Shown: positions 2,434 through 61,479 of the stretch, piece by piece
Layout: each line of letters begins with the position of its first letter
Position numbering within the stretch: the stretch's first letter is position 1
Assembly: GCA_030141605.1 (NCBI GenBank)
Contig: JAQGDQ010000269.1
Coordinates: 247,541 to 311,540, forward strand
Length of the DNA: 64,000 nt
Source: Tubiluchus corallicola
Taxonomy: Eukaryota > Priapulida > Priapulimorpha > Priapulimorphida > Tubiluchidae
Direction of reading: 5' to 3'
The notes under the pieces: generated by a model
Seen by the model: the letters and a program-made list of their open reading frames with translations, nothing else
Told to the model about the DNA's origin: nothing
Databases searched by the model: none
Program-made: the position numbers and the translations under genes

Positions 2434-5400
2434 ATATATGTAATATATATATACATATAATATATATATAATACAATTAAAACTTTTCCTTAGTTAACAG
2501 AGAATGCACTACGAATGCTCTGTTTATTTTTCAAACTTTACACGCAATGTTATCTAAATGTATTGCAAATGATTTCCTGTGAAAATGGCTGTGCCAGCGG
2601 GCATCCCGGGAGTTCAAATTTTCAAGTTTTATACAACATTGCTGCTAACGCAAGTCCTATATGTAATAAGGCAGTATGTAAGTGATACAAAATTTCAAAA
2701 CAAATTTTCAACTTTATTTAGGAAAAGGTTTTTTGCTGTTGCAGTGTTTGCGTACGGTGCTACAGGAGCAGGGAAAACCCACACTATGCTAGGTAACTCC
2801 GAAAACCCCGGGGTGATTTTTCGCACCATGATCGATTTATATGAGCGTATTGAAGACCTGAAGGATGAAAAGACAATCAATGTTGCCATTTCTTACTTAG
2901 AGGTAAACTATTTACTTTAAGTTGTAAAATGTTGAAATGTTGAAAAACATTGTAAAATAAATGTGAAGCTTGTTTTAAATGTGACAACAGTCAAACTTAT
3001 TTGGAAAGTTTGAGTCTTTATTAAATGCACTGTTATAAGTGAGTTTTCAGTAACTGAAATTTTAAGATCATCTGAAAGAAAGAGTTAAAATTAACTAAAT
3101 CCACTTGCTGTGTGGTGTGGCGGGCATTTGGTTGCTATTCATTGTAATAGCAATTTGCTGTTTTTCAACAATTCACCTAGTTGCTCTTCTCTTTTGTATT
3201 CTCTCTTTTTTTATCTGCACTGGTTATTTATCTTTATCGTATTACCGAGTGTTAGTGCACATTCAATCATGATTAGGACACCTGTTTGCTAGATTTGTCA
3301 TTTATAAGTTTATTCTTGACAATGAGCTAGATTTTGGTCATGCCACAATCTTCTACATTAAGTATGCCTCTCTTGTTAAGTCCAGGTTTCTGGCTTGCCA
3401 AAAGTTAAACTGTATGAAAGGCTAAAGGTGGAAGAAAAATGTTATTTGTCTTGGTATTCTATTGAATGCTGTTGTTTGTATTTGCTGTTCATTCATATTA
3501 TTCACTATTCAATCATGCCTTAAGTTACTTTTCTTAATTTGCTTCATACAGTTTTAGATAACTAGATAAAGTGCAAAATCTTTAAAAGCTTTTCATTATT
3601 TTCAGAAAATGAACCAATCTACCTGGCTAACGTCTTTAGTTATTTATCATTTTAGCTTTAATTACATGTTTTTAATAATTTTCAGAAAAGTAGCATTGTA
3701 TAAGCTACACTTATAGCACCTGTCAGTGCAATTTTTCAGTCTAGAACTTATCACTTGCAGGTGTACAACGAGACCATTCGTGATCTTCTCGTTGCTTCTG
3801 GTCCTCTAGCTATACGTGAGGATCCTCACAAGGGTGTAGTCGTCAGCGGGCTGTCCCTCCATCAGCCGAAGTCGGCTGAGGAATTGCTACACATGCTGGA
3901 GTATGGTAATAAGAACAGGACCCAACATCCGACTGACGCTAATGCCGAGTCGTCACGCTCACATGCTGTGTTCCAGGTATTTTTAATTGATGCAAAAACA
4001 CAATATTTACAAATTTTACCATTATTGTTCACAGGTATTCGGAAAGCCATCATTTTAATATTCTTCCTAATTTAATAAATTTGATTATTTTACATTAATT
4101 TTTAAATGTTTATAATTGACCTGCACAATTCACAGTGAAAGTACAGGTCACAAAAATTCGAATCGGATCGAATCAATGATCAGATTTGGATCGGTACCGA
4201 AGCTTCTGCTTACAAAGTACATAAAAGCTCGATAAGAGGAACTGTCTGTGGTGTGTTAGAATGTTATAACAATTAAGAAATAACATCTGTGTTATACTTT
4301 ATGTTGTAATTATGATTTTGTATAATGTTCTGTTAAGTCTGTTTTTTATAAGTTTCTTGACCCAATGTGTCTAGCTACTTCTGTAGGTGAATGTGAATTA
4401 AAACATGGTACACGATATTTTAAACGATAACATAATTGTGACAAAGTTTTTGGTTTCAGGTGTTTGTAAAGCAGAAAGACAGAACTGCGAGCCTCTCTGC
4501 TGACGTGAAAGTAGCTAAAATGTCGCTGATAGATCTCGCAGGTTCTGAAAGGGCCACTGCCACCAAAAACCAAGGAGCAAGATTTCGCGAGGGCGCGAAC
4601 ATAAACAAGTCGCTTTTGGCCCTTGGTAACTGCATCAACGCTCTTGCTGATGGTCGGGTAAGTTTAAATTTTAGATTTTGGTTTTTCTTGCAAGTGAATA
4701 GATGTGTGTAAATGTGAATTTTGAATAATTTAGATAAACTATTCTCTCTCCCTCTCTCTCTTTCTCTCTCTCTCGCTCTCTCCTTCCCTCACATTCGCAG
4801 CTAAACATTCAGCTTTGGTCTGTGAAATTTATCATTAAAAGCACCTGCATTAAGTAATATTTTTGCCATTCGTCATGCTGCTAAAAAATGTCCATTTAAA
4901 CAATACTTGGGCGTAGGTAAATTTTTACGTAAAAAGAATGTCTTGTAACAACCTTTCAGGCAACGGTGATCAAAGTGCAGGCATTCTTTGAGTCCAGAGA
5001 TTGATAAATTACAAATAGATATTGTTTGCTTCATTTTAGTAACATTCTAGGGGTGTTGCTATATCACTTAAATTTGATTATTTAAACTGGGCATAAAACT
5101 GATTGCTACTTGCAATATATTTATGTGCCATGCCATAAATTCTTATGATGCTTGCCTTTGTGTTACGTAACAGGGTATAATGTGACTTCAGTTGCAATTA
5201 GACCTGCAACGTGAAACTTGTTCGCCGCCACATTTGCTTTTTTTACTAGGCAAAGGAACATAGGTCTTTAAAGCTGCGATTGGTCATGATTTCTGTGTGT
5301 TTTCAGAGCAAGAGTCAGCACATACCATACAGGAACAGCAAGCTTACTCGACTGTTGAAGGATTCCTTGGGTGGCAACTGTCAAACCGTGATGATTGCTG

Positions 5401-8400
5401 CTGTCAGTCCATCCAGTTTGACTTACGATGATACTTATAATACACTCAAATATGCTGACCGAGCGAAACACATTAAAGCCACAGTAAGTTGTCTATTTAA
5501 GGCACCTTTTTTCCTGATTATCTTGTGTGCAGCCCAAAGCATTCCACGATTGTCTTGATTTGCAAAAAAGGCATAAAAACAAAAAATGAAAGGACTTGCA
5601 GCTGTTCAACAAGAACTTTCATTGGGGACCTGATCTACCATCTTTGCATCTCAATTTTTTTACATATAGAGATGAATTGGAATTAATTGGAAAGTAATAA
5701 TATAAAATATTTGAATGACACAAAGAGTTTGTGTTGCTGAATTAGTTCACTCTATGAAAACAATAAATGTTTATACAGCCCTAGATTGTTTTACGTGCTT
5801 CTTAATTTCCAAGTCCATCTTAGCTCCCAGCCGACATGAACCTTTTGAATTTTCATACTCGTGCTCAAATTTTCTTTATAAGTCAAATGCAATGTTTTGA
5901 ATGTTGAAATTCTCTTTGTAGCTGAAAGGGCATGGTATGAATATCGAAATTCTCTTTGTAGCTGAAATGCATTGTTATGATTGTTGACTTTCTCTCTCTA
6001 GTTGAAACACAATGTTACGAATGTTGAAATTCTCTTTGTAGCTGAAATGCAATGTTACGAATGTTGAAAATCTTTTTGTAGCTGGAATGCATTGTTATAA
6101 ATGTTGGCTTTCTCTTGGTAGCTGAAACGCAATGTTATGAATGTTGACTTCCACGTGAGCCAGTACGTTAAAATCGTGGAAGAGCTGAGGCAAGAAGTGA
6201 GCGAGCTGAAAGAGAAACTACGGAATTATGAGGAGAACGCAGTAGTTCATGCAGCGCCTGACACCAGACCTGCTGTTTTAGTCACCAGTAACACTGAAGA
6301 AATAGAAAGGTAAATCATTCCTTTTCCTGTAAAAATCTTGCTTATCTTGAAAAGTGCAGTCTTATGCTCCGTTAGGTGAAGTTAGTAAATCCAAGTTAAA
6401 TAAATGAAGTAATGTTAGCTAAACAGACAATTGCATGTCTTGTTGTCGAGGAACAGAATGGTATGGTATAGTTACAAATATAGTGGCTGTTTAGAAGTTG
6501 ACAACACAGCAAAAAAGTTTAAAAAGTTTTTGTTTCAAATAAGGTCACCCTTCATTGCTGGAAATGAGCACAGCAAGCAATATATTATAATTGAAAACAT
6601 GGATTTTTGATTATTGGTTTTATTTTGGACAGAGTGTATATATCTGTCAAACATTGTTTCTAAAGCAGCTAAAAAAATTGTTTCTGTCTTACCTCATGAG
6701 CTCAAAAGATATTGTCAGTAGGGAGTAAAAAGGCATTTTTGCAAAAAAAATTTAAAGCTTTGTGAATGTTTAAAGCTGAATCGTGAAATATTTAAAATCT
6801 GTCGAAATCAACGTTTGGTTATTTTCCACTGTTTAAATCTTTTCAAAGCACTTCATATTTTAGTTTTTTTTGTTTCACATTGCTAAATTATCGTATAATT
6901 ATCGATTATCATATAGTCTGTTTTTTGTATGGTATGAACGTGTGTTGTGATAATGATGGTATAAGCGGTAACGCTACTCGACCGCCAGTATGCTGATTTG
7001 GCAGAAAATACAGTACTTTTTAGCTTCCAATATGATAATCAACATGATACAATATGGTAACCCTGGTCGAGAGTTAGCCATAGAACTTGGCTCCGTCCTT
7101 GCCAAAACAACAATGTGATAATATTTATTGCATTTTACATTTAAAATTAAAAAATATGCTTTTATATGACTACGTCTAAGTATAAAAAGACGGTAAGTAC
7201 AAAAGAAAAAATCATAAAATTCTCGGCCGGGTGTGCAATAAAAAAATATTACCTGGGTCATTAAACAGAAACAGAAGTATTTTTATTGTCGGCTGAACCT
7301 GTGTTACTGCAAACTTAATTGTCACGAACCTCTGTTTACTGTACTGGCAGGTTGAGGGATTCGTTAAGCAAGGTTTTTGCTCAGCGAAAAAAGATACGGA
7401 AAGAAATTTTGGACAGTGAAGCCAGTGCACGCGACATACAAGTCAGAATGTATCGCCGACAAGAAAGTCTGTCTAAGTTCAGTTTAGTTACTCCAGAATC
7501 ACACGCACTTACGGAGGTGAGTATTAAATTAGATACTAAGCTGGCTGATCCAAATAGTTCTGATTATTAAAGTCAAACTAAACCCTGACTATAATATAAG
7601 TTTTTACAACTTAAAGTCCTACTCTCATTGCTTATTATAAACTTACAGTAAAACTTATTATTTTTTATTTTTTGTCACTTCATTGTTAGCGGCATTAAAT
7701 TTGAAAAACTGGCATTTTTCATTGTGCGAGATGAATGACATTATAAGTACAGTCACACTTGCTATGCTACGCATGTCAATCTCGCTCACTCATGCCAAAG
7801 GCTCGAAACATGGCGATCTTTGCACAAGGTTATGCTACTTAGCATTATGCTTACCTGCTTGAAAATTTATGTAACTAAAAAAGAAAATTCTTAGTTGTTT
7901 AAAATGCTCGCCCATCTGGTAAAATGCCACTCACCTTTACGATGGGCACCACTGACTTATCAAAAATGCATTCTTAATCTTATTGACAATATACTGTAAT
8001 TTACACTTTTGCTTAGTTAGTGGGGTATGACGCTATGAATGCTCTGATTATTTTATGCAACGTTATCTAATCTGTTTCAAATGAGGTGCCGCTAAAATGG
8101 CTGCATTTGTGGCCATCCCGGGAGTTTACAGGCTTTATATAGTGTTGCTGCTAATATATGGCTTATTACATGCTCTCTGCTTAATAAGGCAGTGATTTCA
8201 ACATGATTTTTTAGCTTTACGTAACTAAATGGTTTTCTTGTGTTTTGACTTTTAAGCAGTGGTTTTATCATAAGTTGTGCCGCATTGTAATGTTATTTAC
8301 CAATTTTTCAAGTGAACACTGGTCTCTGTGATTCTTACTAAAAATGAGCCTGCAGGCTTTTTCTTTACCCTTTGTAACTTGCCAAATTGAAACTCATTTA

Positions 8401-11400
8401 TACAGCTGTATGGACTATGCAATATTGTTGTAGGTGAAGAACAATGTTGCCACGTTTATGGAGCAAATGCGGTCACGTCGCGCTAGACTTACACAACTCA
8501 AAACGGCTGCGTTAAACAAGCAGGAGCAGAACAAAGAATGGTTAGAACAGGTAGAGGCGGAGATAATGAATACGGCAAGCAGAGATTTCCTTTCTACGTG
8601 CCTCCGTTGTCATCAATTGGAACAGGAGCTGTCCGAATCGAAACTACATAACCGATATCTGAAGAGGTTTATTCTCACACGCGAACGAGAATGGCAAAAT
8701 TCGAACAGGTAAACTAACCGTCTGTCACAAATTCATATAAACTAATCCTTTATACAAACTAGTTGTTTGTAATTAGCATAACCAAACCTTGTTTGAGTGC
8801 AGAATTTCACGTAACCACATTTTTCTTGTCTTCCGTTTGTCATTTCTTCACATTTCTTAATTAACTAGTATTTCTATTAGTCCATTGTGCAATTAACGTT
8901 AATTTTAGCACCATTTTTCTTGATAGTGTAAAAAGTCCATTGGTCACTTTCATACCTTTAATATGGCTATTATACACGTTTATAGTGGACGATGAAGCTG
9001 AATAGCTTATGTGTCTAAGACAATTGTACTATACAAAAAACTTCTTTAGGTTAGGGTTTGATTACTATGCAGCCATGCCATTTTCTCAACACCATAACTA
9101 AGGTATGATTGATAAAGCCGTACGTCTTTGATGATGTCCCAGAATGTCGAACAGAGCTTAAATGTTCAGACGCTTATTTCATAAATGCATAAATTACTTT
9201 ATTTAGTTGGCTTCACTCTTTCTGCAATATAGTGTAATTAGTATTAAGCACTCTACTTTGTTTCTAGTGCAACTGGTAACCAATAGGAATACTGGTAACA
9301 CCAGCCATTGCGGGGTTTCATGCATTTTTTTTGTTTTTTGCTAAGGTTGATGAACATGGTTTTAACGTTGTTGAGGAAACAGCATTTCATTTTGAAAGGC
9401 AACGACATCATGACCTCGGATTTGCAGGAAAGTTACAATGCAATTCAGTCCTCACTCGAAGGACCACATCAGGTAAGCAGGCAAACTACTACGTTTTCTT
9501 AACACTTAAAATTATTGCAAAATTAAAAATATAAAAACATGTGTAGAAAAAACCACATAAGCACAGTAAATAGAAAACGCAAGTGAAAAACAGATCAGAC
9601 TAAAATCATAGCACAGTCTTAGAACACGGTGAGACACGACAGAAACTAAACAGACACAACATTTACTAGAAAAGAGTCTTACCAAGATGTGTAACATAGT
9701 GGCGCCCTCACCCATGCCATTCCATTGGTAAACTGAAATTTTTTAAACACGCATTTTAGACAATTACAAATACAATAATATTTTTCACTGAGATGGTAAT
9801 ACAGCTATGTCAGTATGTCATCGTTGCCATTGTAAAAAAATTTTTGTAGTTTTTAATCTGATCACCTCTATTTATATATTCCACCAAATTCATGAATGAT
9901 GAAATTACATCTTTAATTAATCATAACTCGCAAGTTGCACACATTTTGTGCTATTGTAAGTCATCATAAACATTAAATATTAAAGGAAAATCGCAGCCAA
10001 TCTTCTAATGTAAGTCAAAACAGTCAACTCTATAAAATATTGAAAGGGGAACATACAATTTTTTCAAGAATGACTTACATGAAAGAATTATTACCACGCA
10101 AACGCAATTTCGCATTCGCGTGGCTAGTTCTTCACTGCTACATACATTTCGCCATTCGTTAGTTAGATGGACAATTGAACCCACATTTCGGAAATGCTTT
10201 GCACGAAAACTAAGTGCTGTACCTCTCAGTTCAGAAGTGTTCATTTGTGACAATGTGCACACGTTAGAGAGTTCATGCGTGAACACAGTGGTAAATTTGT
10301 TATCTTAAAACTTGCCGAGTTTTAGTACAACTCACTGAATCTCTCACAATAGTGCTGTACTTCAGTTTTCGCTTTTGCAAACATGTAGAACACGCTTATG
10401 GCATGTTTTTTCTGTTGAAAATCATGTTTGTTTGTGATGTCTTCGATAGTTGGCTCACTCGTCATTAACTAAATTTTTTATTTATTATTTAATTATCAGG
10501 AATATTTTTTCAGTATTTTTGGTATTAAAATGTATACTTTTTACCATACTTCAATCATCTTGTTTTCCTTTAAATGAAGATTTATTTGAAATGACCTTGT
10601 TTGCAGATTGCTTGGGCTGATCAAACCACATCCTCTGAGCAGAACGGGATGCTGGGAAATTTTGACATTAATAACATCATTGACATGCCAGTAATGAGTT
10701 GTGTGTCTCTTACACCTGTTGGTGAGTGCTAGATTGTATGTTGTTTAGTTTGTAAATGGGATGTGTAATATTTACGCCTGCCGCCGGGTGTTAGATTTTG
10801 CGCCGTTTGCTCGTTAGAATGTGTACCGCTTACATTTGTCAGTTTGTATTTGAATGTGTGCAACTTACGGTCGTCGGCAAGTGTTAGAATGTGTGTTGCT
10901 TGAACTTGTGAATAAGTGTTAGACTGTGTGCCACTTTTGCTGGTCGGTAAGCATTAGCATGTGTGTCGGTAAGTTAATTTTTACGAAAGTATTACGACTG
11001 TGTGATGCTTATGCCTATTGGTAAGTGTTTGATTGTGTGTCGCTTACACCTGCCGGTAAGTCTTAGACTGTGTGCTGCTTACGCTTGTCTGCAAGTGCTA
11101 AATTGTGTATGCTTATTGTCCATAAACGCCAGAGGTCGAACAAGTTAAACCGTCACGGATATAACTATATTACAGTCTGTTGACGGTACATCTTTGGCAC
11201 AAGGTGCTGAAACAGCTGCTATTCTAATTACGCTAAGTTAATTGTATTATCTACAAACAATACAAAATTTGAAACAATAAATGAATTCGATTTATGAAGC
11301 AAAATATGTAAAGTTTTTTAAACTAGTAGCAGCTTGAAGGATGCTGGATTCACAATCTAGGTTTTAGAATTCTTCATAGTTTCCTACTGTTTCGTTACTA

Positions 11401-18025: not shown

Positions 18026-18585
18026 ACACCAGGAAAAAACATGGCAGCTTACAGTTGTAATATATGTGGAGAGTATTAACATTAAAAATCTCATTATTGT
18101 TTTCGCATTTTTGGACTACGAAAAAATATTATGGAACAGGAAAGCGATCAGGTAGGGAGCAAATATTTGGTAAGGTGAAGTGCTTATGTATTTGTTTTTG
18201 TAAGTCGCTTTGGATTAGAGTTTTGAGAAACAGTGAGTAAGAACTAGGGTTAGATGAGTGTACATGACTTGAGATGAAATTCACAGTTGCAATCACGTAA
18301 AGCGGCACTAAAAGTAACTAACCAAATCAGGATGGAGTGAAGGTCCTGGACCACAAGCCGTGCTGCATAGGCACGTCCATTTGAGTAAGCTAGGGTCACA
18401 TTCATGGTGGTTACTGGTAGTTTTCTTTTAAGTAATTGCTCGTTAGTTTGTAAATGCATTTAATAATTGCTTCTGTCGACACTAGTTCTTGCATCTTCAT
18501 GGTTGCCATGTTGTGAGTTGATGCGATTTGTAAATTATTTTGTGACAATGGCCTATACGCTCAAGCAATACCCTATACCCTCTTA

Positions 18586-20046
18586 ATGCGCTCAGAATTT
18601 CCAGCAGTGTGTAAACAAGCAAACATAACTCCAATACACAAGAAAGATGCTAAAGATGACGCAAAAAACTACAGACCAATTTCAGTAGTGCATGTACTAG
18701 CCAAAGTATTTGAAAGAGTTATCTACAACCAAATAAATCATTACATTGAAAATAATAAGTTACTGTCAAATCAATTCGGTTTTAGAAAACTACATTCTAC
18801 AATAGACGCAATAATTGATGCCACTGAAAAGTGGCGTTACAACTTAAATAAAAACAAATATATAACAGCAGCATTTTTAGATCTAAGTAAAGCTTTTGAC
18901 AGCCTCGATCACAATTTACTACTAGACAACTTACGCCAACTAGGATTCGATTATACTTCTCTCAAACTAATTAATAATTACCTACACAATAGAAAACAAA
19001 GAGTCAAGTTGAACAAACACACTTTTTCAACATGGGACACACCACAGAGCGGCATCCCGCAAGGTACGATATTAGGTCCTTTACTCTTTTGTTTATATGT
19101 TAATAAAATTCATTTAGTTTTACATAATTCAGACTTAACACAATATGCCGATGATACAACTATCTATACAGCACACGCAGACTTTCTAACATCAAAAAAT
19201 AATCTAGAAAAAGACATAACAAATATAAATGCAGCATTTAACTATTTTGGTTTAAAAATGAATGATGATAAGACAGAATTTATGGTAATATCACCCAAAT
19301 CAAATGACATTACTTCTTAGGCAACACTAAAAGTAGGTGACTGTTCCATAGAACAAGCAAAAAATGTAAAATTTTTAGGCATTACTGTCGATAATAAACT
19401 CACTTGGGATGAACAGTTTCAACAAATACACAACAAGATGGCATTAAGCACGGCATTCTTACGCCAAACCAGAGGCCATCTGACCAAGTAAACAAAAATT
19501 CTCATCTACAAAAGTCTAATATTACCACATTATCTGTATGGTTGCACTTTACTTCAAAACTTTAAGAATGAAAACTTTAGAAAACTAAATACAATGCAAA
19601 ACTACGCACTTAGATTAATTCATGGCTATTCTAATAAAACTGCTAAACAACATGCTGCATCTGCAACAAGCTTAAGAACGTCCTCAAAAATACCAATATT
19701 AGAAGCCTATCGAGATTACAAAACACTGATATTTCTTTATAAATATATCAACAAACTGAGCATTCCATTTATAAACAATCCCTTAGCATTCATTCCTGAT
19801 ACCACTTTAAACAATAGAACACACAATTTAAAGCAAATTACAGTAAACAAAAAATTTGGAAATAACTCTATATCAAAACAGGCCATACATTTATGGAACT
19901 TACTACCCAGTGAAATAAAACTAATAGAATCTCTCTACCACTTTAAAAAGAAATTAAAAGAATATCAATATAACAGGTTTCAACTTCCACATTGTGCATC
20001 TGATACTAATTACACAGACTCAATTTTCATCTACCCCCGCCCCTAA
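18586..20046 (+). pseudogene. Reverse transcriptase ORF with two in-frame stops
   Basis: One frame runs 18586-20046, interrupted by TAG at 19318 and TAA at 19489. Visible motifs: NYRPISVVHVLAKVFERVI (RT fingers), AAFLDLSKAFDSLDH (motif A), SGIPQGTILGPLLF (motif B), QYADDT (catalytic motif C), GLKMNDDKTEFM (motif D), KFLGITVDNKLTWDE (motif E). A C-terminal region follows with LYGCTLLQN and LWNLLPSEIK, typical of CR1/Jockey-like LINEs. It copies LINE RNA at a nick in genomic DNA. The stops and missing 5' half make it inactive. It is unusually intact otherwise, so insertion is fairly recent. Confidence 0.88.
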
Positions 20047-20378: not shown

Positions 20379-20400
20379 TATATATATATATATATATATA
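20379..20400. repeat. (TA)n tail of the LINE
   Basis: TA microsatellite at the 3' end of the retrotransposon, right after AATAAA. Confidence 0.75.
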
Positions 20401-20650
20401 CTGCAAACTACTCGAGTAAGGTAACTTACTCTCGTAGATCTAGCAGAGTATGGATCCATTGCTTGTGTAGGTATGGCCTGTTGGTTCTAGCTTGTCATAT
20501 GTGGCTGTAGGTGCATCATGTGAAGGGTACAGCTAAGCCTCAAAACCATGGTAAAAACTGATTGTTGCTCAATTTTTAGAAGCACCTGACCCTGGGTGTC
20601 CTCATTGTAATTTGTGTTTTTTTGCATTTGTGCTGTTCCGTTACTTTGGA
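20401..20650. other. Short spacer between two LINEs
   Basis: Unremarkable sequence; nothing recognised. Confidence 0.4.
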
Positions 20651-21720
20651 TATCAACTCAATTCAATTCAATTTATTTATTGACTCCGCAAGAATGATCA
20701 AAATACAGTATCAGGAGTACATGCAATATTTCGAAGCAAAGGAGAAGGGCAGCAAAGAACCCGTAGGTTATCTAGTCAGCCACCCTTCAATAGCTATGAT
20801 TAAATAAAATTAACTACGGCATTGTTCTCAATTTAAATTTGTATTCGGTTGATGTGTATAATTGGCAATTAAATGATGGATATCGTAATACTGTAGGACA
20901 TAATAATTTAAATAATGAAAGATTTACAATTCTAAAATACTGTGAATCATGCGAAACAAACACAATAAAAATAACTTAAAGTTTTTAACATAACAGAAAA
21001 TGCATAATTTGAGCATTAACTAAAAAATCTGGCAAGAAAACAAAAAACAGTAGAATGATCAACCAAAGCTGTTGAGAAAAAAAAATATAATAAATTAAAC
21101 CAAGGAAAAATAAGGCAAATATAAATCATACAAAACAAAACAAAAAAAATACAGAAGCAAATAAGAAAAAACAAAACTGAAATGTTGTAATAATAACATC
21201 AATGACTGAAGTTGTCGAGAAAGAAAATATAATAAATTAAACCATCGAAAAACTATATCAACTGTAAATCAGACAAAATGAAATCAAAATATAGCAAAAA
21301 CTTAAACAAAAACTTAAAGTGTCGTAACAATGAAAAAAATATGTATAGGTATTACAAGTACATAAGTAAAATGTCTCATTTATTTGTATCCTGCAATAAG
21401 TTGTTTTTTATAGTTTAGAATTAACTTTTTGTAGTTACTTGACTTTAACTGGTCTGATAATGAATTCCACAGCAAAGTTCCTTGGTGTTTTAAAGAATTC
21501 TGGCCTTTAGATGAGTTAAATCTTTCAATAAAATAAGATTGGGTGGTAGCAAACCTAGTAGAATGGTGATGCATGTGACATGCTAAAGTATAATAATTGC
21601 TAAAGAGATCCGGAAGTGAATTATTTTTGAATTTATATACAAACTTGAGCAATTCTAATTTATACAGATCATATACTTTTAGTAGATTTAATTGCAAATA
21701 CACTACATATATCAACTACA
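20650..21720 (-). mobile_element. 3' end of a second LINE, minus strand
   Basis: A C-terminal ORF piece lies at 21380-21715, followed by a 3' UTR running to lower coordinates. It ends in a simple repeat tail, (TTGAA)n-like, seen on the + strand as actcaattcaattcaattt at 20656-20675. CR1/L2-type elements carry such pentanucleotide tails. Confidence 0.7.
21380..21715 (-). pseudogene. LINE ORF2 C-terminal fragment
   Basis: Open for 111 codons. It contains LYKLELLKFVYKFKNNSLPD, a typical post-RT region of CR1/L2-type elements, and GTLLWNSLSDQLKSS, the counterpart of LWNxLP. The RT core is not found upstream on this strand, so it is a short 3' remnant. Confidence 0.72.
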
Positions 21721-21866
21721 ACTGTAGGGACCTAACAGCAACAATATTTTACTTTTGATTTTCCTAGTCTTCTAAAGAAAGAAAGAAAAAATTTGTTAAT
21801 TTTATACATGCACTTTATACTATTGAATTTTCTGCATTCAGATTAAGTGGCAATTGAATTTATGTA

Positions 21867-22658
21867 CAGTCTAGCCTCGTTATCTCGCCACTGTCCGTCT
21901 AGGGCAAATTTTTGGCGAGAGGCGAGTATGGCGAGATAACGGGAATGTAACGAAGTTAGTCTATATGTATATACATAATAGTTGATTAACATAGTGTTCC
22001 TCTATGTACATATAAAATATATTTCGCATTATGATACCAATCAACATTGAATCAGAAATGAAAAAATGTCATAAAAATAATCTTAGAATGTTACTTTTTT
22101 ATTTAAAAAACCTTTTTCGAGTATACACTTAAATGCAATAAACTTAGCAAAAGATTTAGAAATGTTCACAAATGAGTTACTGACGACTGAAATAATTCAG
22201 AAGAGACGACTGTTTCATTGATGATACATGCAAGCAGTCAACACGACGTTTAACTCAAACTTAAACGCAGCTTTGGTGTTATAGAGTAAGGATATCGGTG
22301 ACGCTTTAGTTTCTCTGCGCATTAACCAACCACAGCACTTCTAATCTAATCCTGGTGAGACACACACTAGATTAATTATGTCTGTCTATCAAGCACAGCG
22401 GCATTGTCTACATACCGCGGTTATATTGATCGACATGCGGTATATGTATTGATCGATTCACCCCTGAGTTTGTCTGTTTGGCGACATAACGAATATAGTT
22501 TACATAAGCACTCATCCTAGCATGACTTGGCGAGGGCGAGAAGCGAGGGTGGTGACTTAACGAGGTAAATATCAAAGCAGGAAATCCGTCATGGCACTTT
22601 CTATGGCGAGAGACGAGTTTGGCGGCATAACGAGGGGTGAGATAACGAGGCTAGACTG
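21867..22658. mobile_element. Pogo/Tigger-like MITE, 792 bp, TA duplication
   Basis: Left end CAGTCTAGCCTCGTTATCTC and right end ..GAGATAACGAGGCTAGACTG are perfect inverted repeats for about 20 bp, flanked by TA at 21865-21866 and 22659-22660. Subterminal ggcgaga/gcgag motifs repeat inside. There is no transposase ORF, so it is non-autonomous. CAGT ends and TA target fit the Tc1/mariner superfamily. Confidence 0.85.
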
Positions 22659-22920
22659 TATTTTATTTCGTTTGTAATAGTTCAGCTTATCCTTTTTTTA
22701 AATTGCTCATTATAGTGTTTGTCTTTACAAAACAAGTATTTGTGATATATAAGACCGTTGCTAAGTAACAACCATCATGTAGCACGAGTATTGATCAACG
22801 AAGAATTGTACTCTTGTAATATAAGCTTTATTTATTTTGAGTGAATTTACAATACAATTCAAAACAAGTCCTAGTCATTTTTCCGAGTGCAGAAAAATGT
22901 AGTGCATTTTAGTTAGGTTC

Positions 22921-22962
<42 letters not shown>

Positions 22963-25900
22963 ATGCGTGCGTGCGTGATTGCATAGCAAAATCGTCCATA
23001 AGTCGGCAATTTTCTACTTATTCACACATACTGAATCTCGGATACCAAGCTCATCGCTGTATGTTATTTCAAAGCTGAGATAATCCACGTTGAAGTTGAG
23101 CTGCAGGCTATGCACTAAAAAACGTAACCTTGCAAAAATCGCTGTTAAAGTTAGCCATTATTAACACTTAGCAACCACGCAAATGTTGGTTGCGACTGAC
23201 TTTGTAAGAACACATTACAGGTATGCTTAAATCCAGTAGATGGCCCTTCCTGATGAAGATCTAAGCTTGGCAACAGAAAAAACCCAAAGAAAAATTACTG
23301 CTTCCGCAAGCTACTATCGGAGTTTGAAAATACAAGTTTTTTACAATTACATTATTAGTTTCTAGTCAGAAAAGTATGTATGGGGTTATAAAATTAAGTT
23401 TTTAGTATTTTTTACTATTTTTTAGTTGAATACTAATATTACAATACGTTATATTAAAATAATGTATGCATATCTACCTTATTCAGGTACCACAGCAACA
23501 AATTATGTGCATTGCACATATATGCTTGTTTTTGTAAAGCAAATTACACGGTGTTTGAGCTGTGTTTAAATTATTAACAGCATACTATTTATGCTTCTAT
23601 CAGTATTTTTAAATCGTGCAATGTAAATTGTTTGAAATTTACTGCCATGGCACTTATAATATTAGCAAAACTTTGCCATTTAATGCTGTGTGGAAACAAG
23701 GCGTATCAACATTTCACGATGCCCTCAGCTGATAGTTCTGTTCTGCCCATCTCTATTGTTAATTTGTGGTTGATTATTTAACGAGAATATTAAACAATTA
23801 CTTGTGGGGCATTAGAAACACTATTAACCTAGTTTCTACGTGGTCGTTATTAATTACCATTTATTTGCATAGTCCTTATATTCAAGGAGGCTGCACAGCT
23901 TGTTGTGTAATACTTATGATATGATTGTTATGTGGACTTATATAAAAACTGAGTTCAGTAACTGCCTGTGGTGTGTTATAAAATGTGCCCTTTTCATGAA
24001 TATGAAAGTATACATATTTTCCGAAGAGGATAAGAATTTTTTCTAAAATGTGACGCCCTTCAAACTTTAGCGCCTTAGGCTATAACCTAGTTAGCCTATT
24101 GGTCAATACACCCTTGTGTGGAAAGGAGCTTAAATTTTGTTCTTATTATTGTCCCAACGGATGGCGCTATATGCATTGCACAGTATGCAAAGATGATTAT
24201 AGCACCTGTGATGCCGTCTGTTAAGATTACTTGTAAAATAAATAGAACTAACTCTCTTCTCAAGTTTCAGTCCTAGATATCCTTCCTGTATGCATGCTTG
24301 TAGATGTCATTTTCCTACCATGAGCACCATGTATGGTAATAATTTTCCCGTCATTTTAATTACGTTCGTTACTTCCAACCTATTTACGAAATTTGAATAT
24401 TAACTTGCATAAGTTTGTATATATTTTGGTTATAATTATATGCTCGCAAAGCGTATTTTCTTGTCGATGTTTACCGTGTAAAGTGGGCGTTGTTTATAGT
24501 ACCACGAGTTGTGTTATGCTGGCTTATCCTGACCAGATCATGGACGTGCATTCCTGGTTTCATCCTCTCCGGGTCATCTGCTCCTGTGTGACGTTTACTG
24601 CACTGGGTAGAACCGCTTTCAGTCTTGGAGCACGATTTTCTTGTATCGTGGGCTATAAATTTCCGACGGTTTGTTTATTGGCGAGAATTTTCTATAATGT
24701 GTTGCGTGATGATAAACATTGAAATTCGCTGTTTTGAAAGGGCATCTTTAGCTTTAATGAAAGTCGTGTGAAAGACCAGGAAAGAAAATAACTGGCAAAC
24801 ATGCTTTTAACTTCGTGCTGAAAGGTTTATTGTAATTTTCTCGAAGCAGTGTAGTGGGTTAATTGGAAAATTTCAATTTGGCAACTTGCCAATTTCGGGA
24901 CTTGTGCCGTACAAGGCATGTTCTGACGGACAAAATAGTGCTGTGCGCGATCTCTTACCTACATCTGGCATTTAAATAAAATAGATTTATTAAATGTACC
25001 ACATTTTGCTTCTTCCTCATCGGCTACTTCTGGCAAAGGCTCAGGTTTTGCTTAATTGTTGGTCTAATATATATATATCTTAATGACGGAATAATCTACA
25101 ACCGTTTTTAAGTGAGTTCGAGCTAAGCAAGAGTCTAAATTTTTCATATGAGCTGCTTTCTTAACATTTGCAGGTAATGGCACCGCTCAGATCTTATCAT
25201 TGTGCAAAGTGGTACCTGACTTATAGAGGCGTTCAATTGTGTGGTCTATAGAGAAAGAATTGCTGCTAATTGCTAAAAACTCTTTTCAAGCTTATTATAT
25301 ATTTTTTAATTTAATTGAGTTTAGTTACAGTTTGGTTCACTGTTCGGACTTCGTATAAAACTTTAATTCTTTAGAACTGGAGTTCAAATTTGGCGTGAGC
25401 TGTGTGTAGTAAAATGCCGATTAGACTCGCTGCTTTGTTCGGGTTTTCTGTGGGCCTACTAAGCTGCTACTTATTTTTAACCTATTTGTTTGTCGGACGC
25501 TTAACCCATTCTGTAACTAAGCTGGAAGGTTTAATAAGTATCATTACTCATACAAGATATTGAATCGCGTCCCGAGTGCCTTATAACATTTTAGAGCTTA
25601 TGCGGGTACCTTTCGATTATTCTTTCTCCAATTTATTAAAAACATGAAGGAGCGGAGAGCTCATTACTTAATACGATCTACTGATTGGTAGTCTTGGGTA
25701 TAGTTTTAGCCCAGTTTTGTTCCACTTATTCGTTCGTTTCTGACATGCTGTGTAAATAAATTAACTTGATTTTATTCTACAAATATCATGCGTAGTAGGT
25801 GTTCCTGTCACACAATCACTGAAGATAGTTTTTTGCGAGGATTAATTAGTAGCAGACGTCATTGAGCAAACGCAGTGAAATTGCTTTACTTGATCTGCCA

Positions 25901-61100: not shown

Positions 61101-61479
61101 TATGATATCATAATTATTACAGATGCTTTGCATTCGAGAACTTCTACTCCTAAGTTTGGTATCAGCATTTCTTGAAATTAATGCGCAAGCTGGACGTGCC
61201 AGATCCAAGCACATACAATTTAGGCAAACAACCAAAAGCACATACAATTTAGGCAAACAATCAAAAGCACATACATTTCTATTAAGTAATCTATTTATTC
61301 TTATTACAGTTTGGGGAGCTGCCATGGTAGCCATTTTTATCATTTCATCTGCTGGACTCCTGGTAGTGGCAGTTGTTCCGTTGTTAGATAAGGCTTTTTA
61401 TCAATTCATCTTACACTTTTTGGTTTCTTTGGCTGTTGGATCACTTTCAGGCGATGCGTTACTTCATCTGTTTCCTCAC
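54500..61479 (+). CDS. SLC39A6/10: LIV-1 subfamily ZIP zinc transporter (SLC39A6/10 type), 3'-partial
   Basis: Zinc importer of the plasma membrane. Exons 54500-55117, 59250-59469 and 61310-61479 give 336 residues; the rest lies beyond the window. The start ATG at 54500 opens a signal peptide (KYILAFITILAITKADD). Then come a His-rich stretch (HYSHSSSGHHAG, 81-92), IAEIFNKYGREHVMDFEGFE (about 101-120, as in ZIP6/10), N-glycosylation sites and a basic cleavage site VRKKR near residue 173. Exon 2 carries the prion-like domain cysteines with CPAVIYELDIANC, the CPALLY-type motif of ZIP6 and ZIP10. Exon 3 encodes two membrane segments ending GSLSGDALLHLFPH. The zinc-site helices (HNFxDG, HExPHE) are not in the window. 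ZIP6 and ZIP10 cannot be separated. Confidence 0.88.
56003..56042 (-). pseudogene. Remnant related to the 30.1-kb unidentified ORF
   Basis: The - strand reads QLFYKRLYQDEGYE, matching DLFYKYLYQNEG of the ORF at 30094-30381. It is stopped soon after. Confidence 0.45.
56050..56540 (-). mobile_element. Decayed LINE C-terminus, minus strand
   Basis: Frameshifted but readable: RRDVTELQST, HSLKLCVRRTNKKGYGF, and IIWNSLLSSVNDAPFVNTG in the ORF 56059-56298. This is the usual end of CR1/Jockey-type ORF2 (WNSLPxxVVxA) in ZIP intron 1. Confidence 0.7.
58353..58722 (+). repeat. Direct repeat R3 copy 1 with exon-like ORF (58514-58722)
   Basis: An acceptor-like aaattgcag precedes a 69-codon open frame (VASGGVWKITHGDWAVSRTR, LLDVNQTWVSF, PLAGCRATNIFWGNVF) ending TAG at 58720. 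The same sequence recurs at 63686-64000: the exon-like part is identical as far as the window shows, the intron-like part has diverged. Protein family not recognised. Its phase does not fit ZIP exon 1. Confidence 0.6.
58725..58885 (-). mobile_element. hAT-type fragment related to 28716-28953
   Basis: On the - strand, ctatgtaaatgtcaccaaaa, ggatggctccgcctgagggg and cccca match the element at 28836-28925. The outer end is lost. Confidence 0.6.
59250..59469 (+). CDS. SLC39A6/10: ZIP exon 2: prion-like cysteine domain
   Basis: Acceptor tcattacag, donor gtaaga at 59470, phase 0 to 1. It begins CLSPDEILSQF and contains ICPAVIYELDIANCMQKF. The open frame beyond 59469 is intron. Confidence 0.88.
59580..60180 (+). 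mobile_element. LINE 3' fragment: ORF2 C-terminus and 3' UTR
   Basis: HLPAIETGRSHKPNK, YTVTRYEQLRNTLYTEI and LSDDVKLKLL match the C-terminal Cys/His-containing region of Jockey/CR1-type ORF2 (IETGR, YxxLR). The 3' UTR from about 59930 matches 63340-63485 in inverted orientation. Confidence 0.65.
61208..61280 (+). repeat. 29-bp tandem repeat, 2.5 copies, beside ZIP exon 3
   Basis: Units starting agcacatacaatttaggcaa at 61208, 61237 and 61266. Confidence 0.9.
61310..61479 (+). CDS. SLC39A6/10: ZIP exon 3: membrane segments 1 and 2
   Basis: Acceptor ttattacag, donor gtatgt at 61480, phase 1 to 0. WGAAMVAIFIISSAGLLVVA and HFLVSLAVGSLSGDALLHLF are typical LIV-1 helices. Confidence 0.92.

Follow-up and report, generated by a model that had tools for sequence, protein, structure and literature searches.

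A mirage-type minisatellite across the 3' splice junction of a KIF18-type kinesin-8 exon

In the window, the whole 64,000-bp stretch of DNA analysed (C2175:247541-311540 of a 343.5-Mb genome in 2,344 contigs), a 40-bp segment in which 16 bp of intron end adjoin 24 bp from the start of the following exon is repeated in tandem in front of a predicted kinesin-8 exon. The array has the anatomy by which a mirage minisatellite is defined. Very probably, minisatellite turnover crossed the splice junction of this gene, and the resulting array is tolerated because its last acceptor still works.

Results

Host gene and start of the coding exon

The host gene was identified by comparison with human KIF18A. 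When the exon that precedes the array is joined at 5483 to the acceptor at 6121, the predicted protein matches human KIF18A in an alignment that no gap interrupts at the junction (E 6.2e-35; best stretch 1.5e-34). By this homology the gene is a KIF18-type kinesin-8, KIF18A and KIF18B not being told apart. As the alignment runs gap-free through the junction, the last acceptor is assigned as the authentic start of a conserved kinesin-8 exon. This exon, called exon 7 in the original prediction, is the fifth with kinesin homology found in the window. The central point of that prediction, that the intron-exon junction itself had been repeated, was supported, the last copy being the true start of the conserved exon. 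The features of the gene and of the arrays are collected in Table 1.

Table 1. Splice junction arrays and adjoining exons. Positions are those of the window unless a locus is given; a slash marks an exon boundary.
Feature	Position	Strand	Basis or remark
Kinesin-8 exon preceding the array, TTTTCAG/AGC... to ...AKHIKAT, ACA/GTAAGT, phase 0	5307..5483	+	KIF18A homology
Junction-crossing minisatellite, six 40-bp units and a degenerate first one	5867..6147	+	TRF, self-identity
Copy 0, degenerate, AAG ending 5882	5867..5905	+	If used: stop after 5 codons
Unit 1, TAG ending 5921	5906..5945	+	If used: stop after 21 codons
Unit 2, TAG ending 5961	5946..5985	+	If used: stop after 21 codons
Unit 3, TAG ending 6001	5986..6025	+	Top of the seven by crude matrix; in frame (+120), TGA after 21 codons
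Unit 4, TAG ending 6041	6026..6065	+	Nearest to unit consensus; if used: stop after 27 codons
Unit 5, TAG ending 6081	6066..6105	+	If used: stop after 21 codons
Unit 6, predicted productive acceptor, TAG ending 6121, and exon start	6106..6145	+	Frame and KIF18A alignment
Kinesin-8 exon after the array, end ATAGAAAG/GTAAAT, phase 2	6122..6309	+	Frame and homology
Later exon of the KIF18-type gene, two candidate donors	10607..10721	+	Donor choice by eye
Second array, about 12 diverged units of about 35 bp repeating the donor (5' splice) junction	10686..11115 (approx.)	+	Wrap-around alignment, TRF
3'-junction array of another kinesin, eleven 71-bp copies of an acceptor (TTTCCAG) with its exon start (GSEKVRESKGQG)	L036:4676-5449		

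Geometry of the array

TRF recognised the array over 5867-6147 with period 40 (score 289) and period 80 (score 318), and over 5890-6147 with period 120, which gave the highest score of the three (376). Self-identity at a lag of 40 bp is 0.78 over 5867-6147. The whole window was scanned at the same lag with 281-bp placements at a step of 10; each of the 12 highest-ranking placements listed (maximum 0.77) overlaps the array, as compared with a window mean of 0.28 (sd 0.04).

Six exact copies had been predicted at 5881..6145. Six full units are indeed present, and their acceptor AGs fall at exact 40-bp steps (TAG in 6/6 units; five steps). However, the copies are not exact, their pairwise identity being 79.5% on average with 27-37 of the 40 bases common to a pair, and the array extends further than predicted owing to a seventh, degenerate unit on the upstream side, copy 0. 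The AG of the latter ends 39 bp ahead of that of unit 1, and translation of its exon-like part in the frame of the exon yields KCNVLNVE, so that the peptide is still recognisable. Unit 4 differs from the unit consensus by one base and unit 3 by eight. Units three steps apart are identical at 33, 35 and 33 of 40 positions, and neighbouring units at 30-34. The best TRF score at the 120-bp period faintly suggests that the units may form two triplets, (1,2,3) and (4,5,6), of which one arose later by duplication; the suggestion is faint because the three-step identities barely exceed those between neighbours. A 321-bp query over the array had a single match in the 343.5-Mb genome, the array itself, in a search where the lack of a match does not prove rarity.

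Upstream acceptors

All six upstream AGs, that of copy 0 included, lead to a stop within 5-27 codons, in agreement with the prediction that splicing to them would be non-productive. The acceptor at +120, which alone had been expected to keep the frame and then meet a TGA, does so at 6065.

Acceptor strength was estimated with crude splice-site matrices that were taken as given and not derived. The reference set was obtained by entering 53 of the 111 kinesin-domain matches, which gave 28 introns; four of these are doubtful (donor scores below -3), and the row for the window among them is wrong. Unit 3 scored 3.4 (68th percentile of the 28 inferred kinesin acceptors) and unit 6 scored 3.2 (64th percentile), followed by units 1, 2 and 4 (1.1 each), unit 5 (-0.5) and copy 0 (-2.0, under all 28). 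By this crude matrix, the productive site is among the best-scoring acceptors, but unit 3 does equally well.

The T, A and G columns of the acceptor are invariant in 6/6 full units, and 19 of the 40 columns are invariant overall. By hand calculation, the chance that three given columns would all be invariant is about 0.10. Survival of all six TAGs at 20% divergence could mean that the KIF18 copies were kept, this chance figure being about 0.10; the figure is insufficient to demonstrate selection on the AGs, which was not accepted. Compared with the last unit over eight codons each, the five full upstream units show 15 N (amino-acid-changing) and 3 S differences (18.7 N and 5.3 S sites). Differences that mostly change amino acids are as expected of non-coding relics.

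A second array on the donor side of the same gene

At its donor end, a later exon of the KIF18-type gene carries a second array, which was absent from the original prediction and repeats the donor junction. Wrap-around alignment of this array gave a score of 381, whereas none of 12 base shuffles exceeded 58, and TRF recognised a part of it (10987-11115). Of the 13 places where a unit begins, seven retain the GT. Two candidate donors were considered for the exon at 10607. The donor at 10691 (GTAATG) is weak but in phase 0, and fits TTTGTAG/CTTTTCC before 13775; that at 10722 (GTGAGT) is stronger and in phase 1, and would require the next exon to be entered at GAAG, an acceptor 12 bp downstream. 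Intronic donor-like sites at 10969 and 11056 outscore both candidates by the crude matrix.

A third array in another kinesin gene

A further, independent 3'-junction array was found in another kinesin locus, L036. Its last copy is coding and runs on into the real exon ...TLTEANNINRSLLVLG, which is not listed by Pfam and was found by reading. All six upstream copies with an intact AG reach a stop. Ten copies lie upstream of the last one, and the first four of them have lost the G of the AG, whereas none of six is lost in the KIF18 array. This G column is the sole one of 73 alignment columns to show all four bases (Poisson 0.006 for one pre-chosen column). Since the column was noticed ahead of its test, it gives no more than a hint at the removal of unwanted acceptors in L036. 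More than one gene of this genome is affected, namely the KIF18-type gene with two arrays and the L036 kinesin.

Also in L036, at 708-1090, repeats of about 111 bp with a donor-like CTGGTGAGC stand right before a kinesin-domain exon (TRF 708-933; further copies by eye). They may represent another 5' junction array, though their junction status could not be established. Nor could junction status be established for the array at L042:9500-9604, whose unit includes TTTTCAG.

Minisatellites across the kinesin loci

Arrays were counted at a TRF period of 20 or more and a score of 100 or more. By this count, minisatellites cover 7,526 of 185,758 bases (4.05%) of 20 kinesin loci in 28 merged arrays, and 692 of 64,000 bases (1.1%) of the window in four arrays. 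The genome has 111 kinesin-domain matches, and 73 of these are listed in the 20 loci, two of which, L038 and L039, have about 900 bases in common. One match, C1917:180273-180434, is cut by the locus edge and was left out, leaving 72 that were whole and examined. The 72 kinesin-domain exon matches are all free of TRF arrays, three of them lying within 80 bp of one. Blind placement at 4.05% coverage would be expected to touch about 6 of the 144 match ends, which are not exact exon ends.

A process that seeks junctions was rejected, as junction arrays are not in excess (0/72 matches crossed versus about 6/144 ends expected). They are in fact rarer than minisatellite coverage alone would give, which counts against the explanation favoured here. 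Given that minisatellites occupy 4% of these 20 loci, there is no call for a junction-seeking process, and minisatellite turnover alone is enough for occasional junction arrays. It may be that most arrays touching an exon are weeded out.

Several other repeats were recorded in the course of this survey. In L038, the array at 4879-5296 (72 bp) lies 58 bp past a kinesin-domain exon match and that at 8853-9319 (239 bp) lies 21 bp ahead of such a match; neither crosses the match. Searched across the genome, a pattern of three GGTAAGT sites had 2,817 matches and its backwards control 724; as the places listed are mostly one long array and a dispersed family, no conclusion was based on these counts. 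No tie to a splice junction was found for the C5 array retrieved with this pattern. The dispersed minisatellite family carrying GGTAAGT (GGTAAGTCAAATGTAGACA..., units of about 42 to 60 bp) was seen in C16, C17, C38 and C46, and in C17 and C38 it lies on opposite strands a few kb apart, like a large inverted repeat. In C917, myosin-head exons at 20400-23919 and 90660-94210 are on opposite strands, several pairs having identical scores; the pairs are either an inverted duplication or an assembly palindrome.

Within the window, two open frames at 18517-20046, of which the first encodes a reverse transcriptase domain (PF00078, 9.3e-35), were by reading assigned to a LINE-like element. An intronic 29-bp repeat of 2.4 copies at 61207-61275 lies just before an exon of a ZIP zinc transporter; it was rejected as a junction array, as it stops short of the acceptor of that exon.

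Discussion

Formation of the array and choice of the acceptor

Setting out from the observed anatomy, coding copy and upstream stops, the most probable course of events is as follows. Tandem copies of the 40-bp segment would have arisen, probably through slippage in replication or through unequal exchange, and perhaps a triplet of 120 bp was amplified later. The copy furthest downstream is the only one to run on into coding sequence, and it would hold the genuine 3' splice site. All remaining copies would be intronic relics, which look like splice sites because they were born with those features. Most likely, the last acceptor is selected through its pairing with the downstream signals and donor of the exon (exon definition), and the branch point would most likely lie between 6081 and 6121. 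Use of any upstream copy would lead to an early stop, and nonsense-mediated decay should remove the product.

Other readings of the array

Non-productive AGs at every upstream position would also be expected if the upstream copies formed a bank of poison acceptors, used at a regulated rate and tuning kinesin-8 output via nonsense-mediated decay, possibly by copy number. Five of the six upstream acceptors are within the range of the 28 inferred kinesin acceptors (percentiles 18-68; copy 0 is below all), TAG is retained by all six full units, and a study of how TERT is spliced (PMC11830802, in the text available) deals with a 38-bp VNTR of TERT intron 6. Nevertheless, such regulation is unlikely here. 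Conservation of the AG shows no clear excess over chance (about 0.10), and the array RNA folds no better than its shuffles (z 0.82; 79/100 shuffles as good). Junction copies would often be non-productive anyway, as they are in L036 too, and the amphioxus mirages are reported as normally spliced in the accessible portion of PMC3087553. On these grounds the suggestion that the array acts as a productivity switch was not sustained, and the results give no positive evidence of purposeful upkeep of the upstream copies. A broader proposal is that an acceptor bank of six or seven, the last alone productive, acts together with the donor bank, mRNA yield being set by allele copy number. It would amount to a tunable, length-polymorphic splicing brake derived from minisatellite turnover and to a genome-wide class, in an animal maybe outside the cephalochordates. 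Taken as a whole, this is improbable.

Two further readings are both very unlikely. An assembly artefact of a short repeat has a precedent in one amphioxus mirage, which was seemingly misassembled in the genome draft according to the text available from PMC3087553. In the present array, however, all units differ from one another, the outermost upstream copy is by eye the most degenerate, and the whole is consistent with the frame and phase of the gene. Chance similarity, or a dispersed repeat family with one member placed at the junction by coincidence, might be entertained in a genome with minisatellite-rich kinesin loci (20 surveyed) and a dispersed family carrying GGTAAGT. Against this, the genome search with the array returned the array only, within the limit given above for that search, and the unit holds exon sequence that is conserved in human KIF18A.

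Relation to known systems

Mirage minisatellites are known from the amphioxus genes for Adh3, troponin C, the globins BflGb6 and BflGb9, and PGBD5 (PMC3087553, PMC3902484, in the parts available), PGBD5 and troponin C having been added by PMC3902484. According to the same portion of PMC3087553, BflGb6 has 6 and 3 repeats in two haplotypes, with units that are 81-100% identical, many of them with AG/GT. The Adh3 mirage, as cited there, has units of 10-72 bp and shows somatic instability. Adh3 data and globin RT-PCR in that text suggest that splicing in amphioxus is regular. The KIF18 array, known here from the DNA of one assembly, resembles these cases in its tandem units spanning the intron-exon boundary, the authentic copy at the exon edge and the kept AG. 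Amphioxus mirages occur on the 3' or the 5' side, whereas the KIF18-type gene carries both, one array each. Further differences are the kinesin-8 host, the more diverged copies and the step of exactly 40 bp. The kind of repeat has already been described in lancelets, and the new case is the kinesin-8 gene. Among the reports found, the term mirage is used in this sense for amphioxus, and other groups may have reports. As to the host of the present array, searches of the genome for GFP, a family present in amphioxus, for cellulose synthase, known from tunicates, and for COX1 yielded no match, the controls responding for cellulose synthase and COX1 but not for GFP.

Intron gain by tandem genomic duplication, as presented in the available part of PMC4974935, likewise involves a tandem duplication in a gene and multiplies splice signals. 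Here, in contrast, an existing intron was lengthened and its acceptor multiplied, with a gap-free KIF18A alignment and without a new intron. TERT VNTR6-1 is likewise an intronic minisatellite of comparable unit length (38 bp), but a splice junction is present in each unit of the KIF18 array and none is mentioned for the TERT unit in the available text of PMC11830802.

The KIF18 array offers a clean natural experiment on how the spliceosome settles on a single acceptor when near-identical ones stand every 40 bp. It is also an intermediate of the type put forward to explain how introns lengthen and are gained. With three arrays in two kinesin genes, this genome looks suited to measuring the invasion of splice junctions by minisatellites and its tolerance. 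If the host is not a lancelet, mirages extend to another group.
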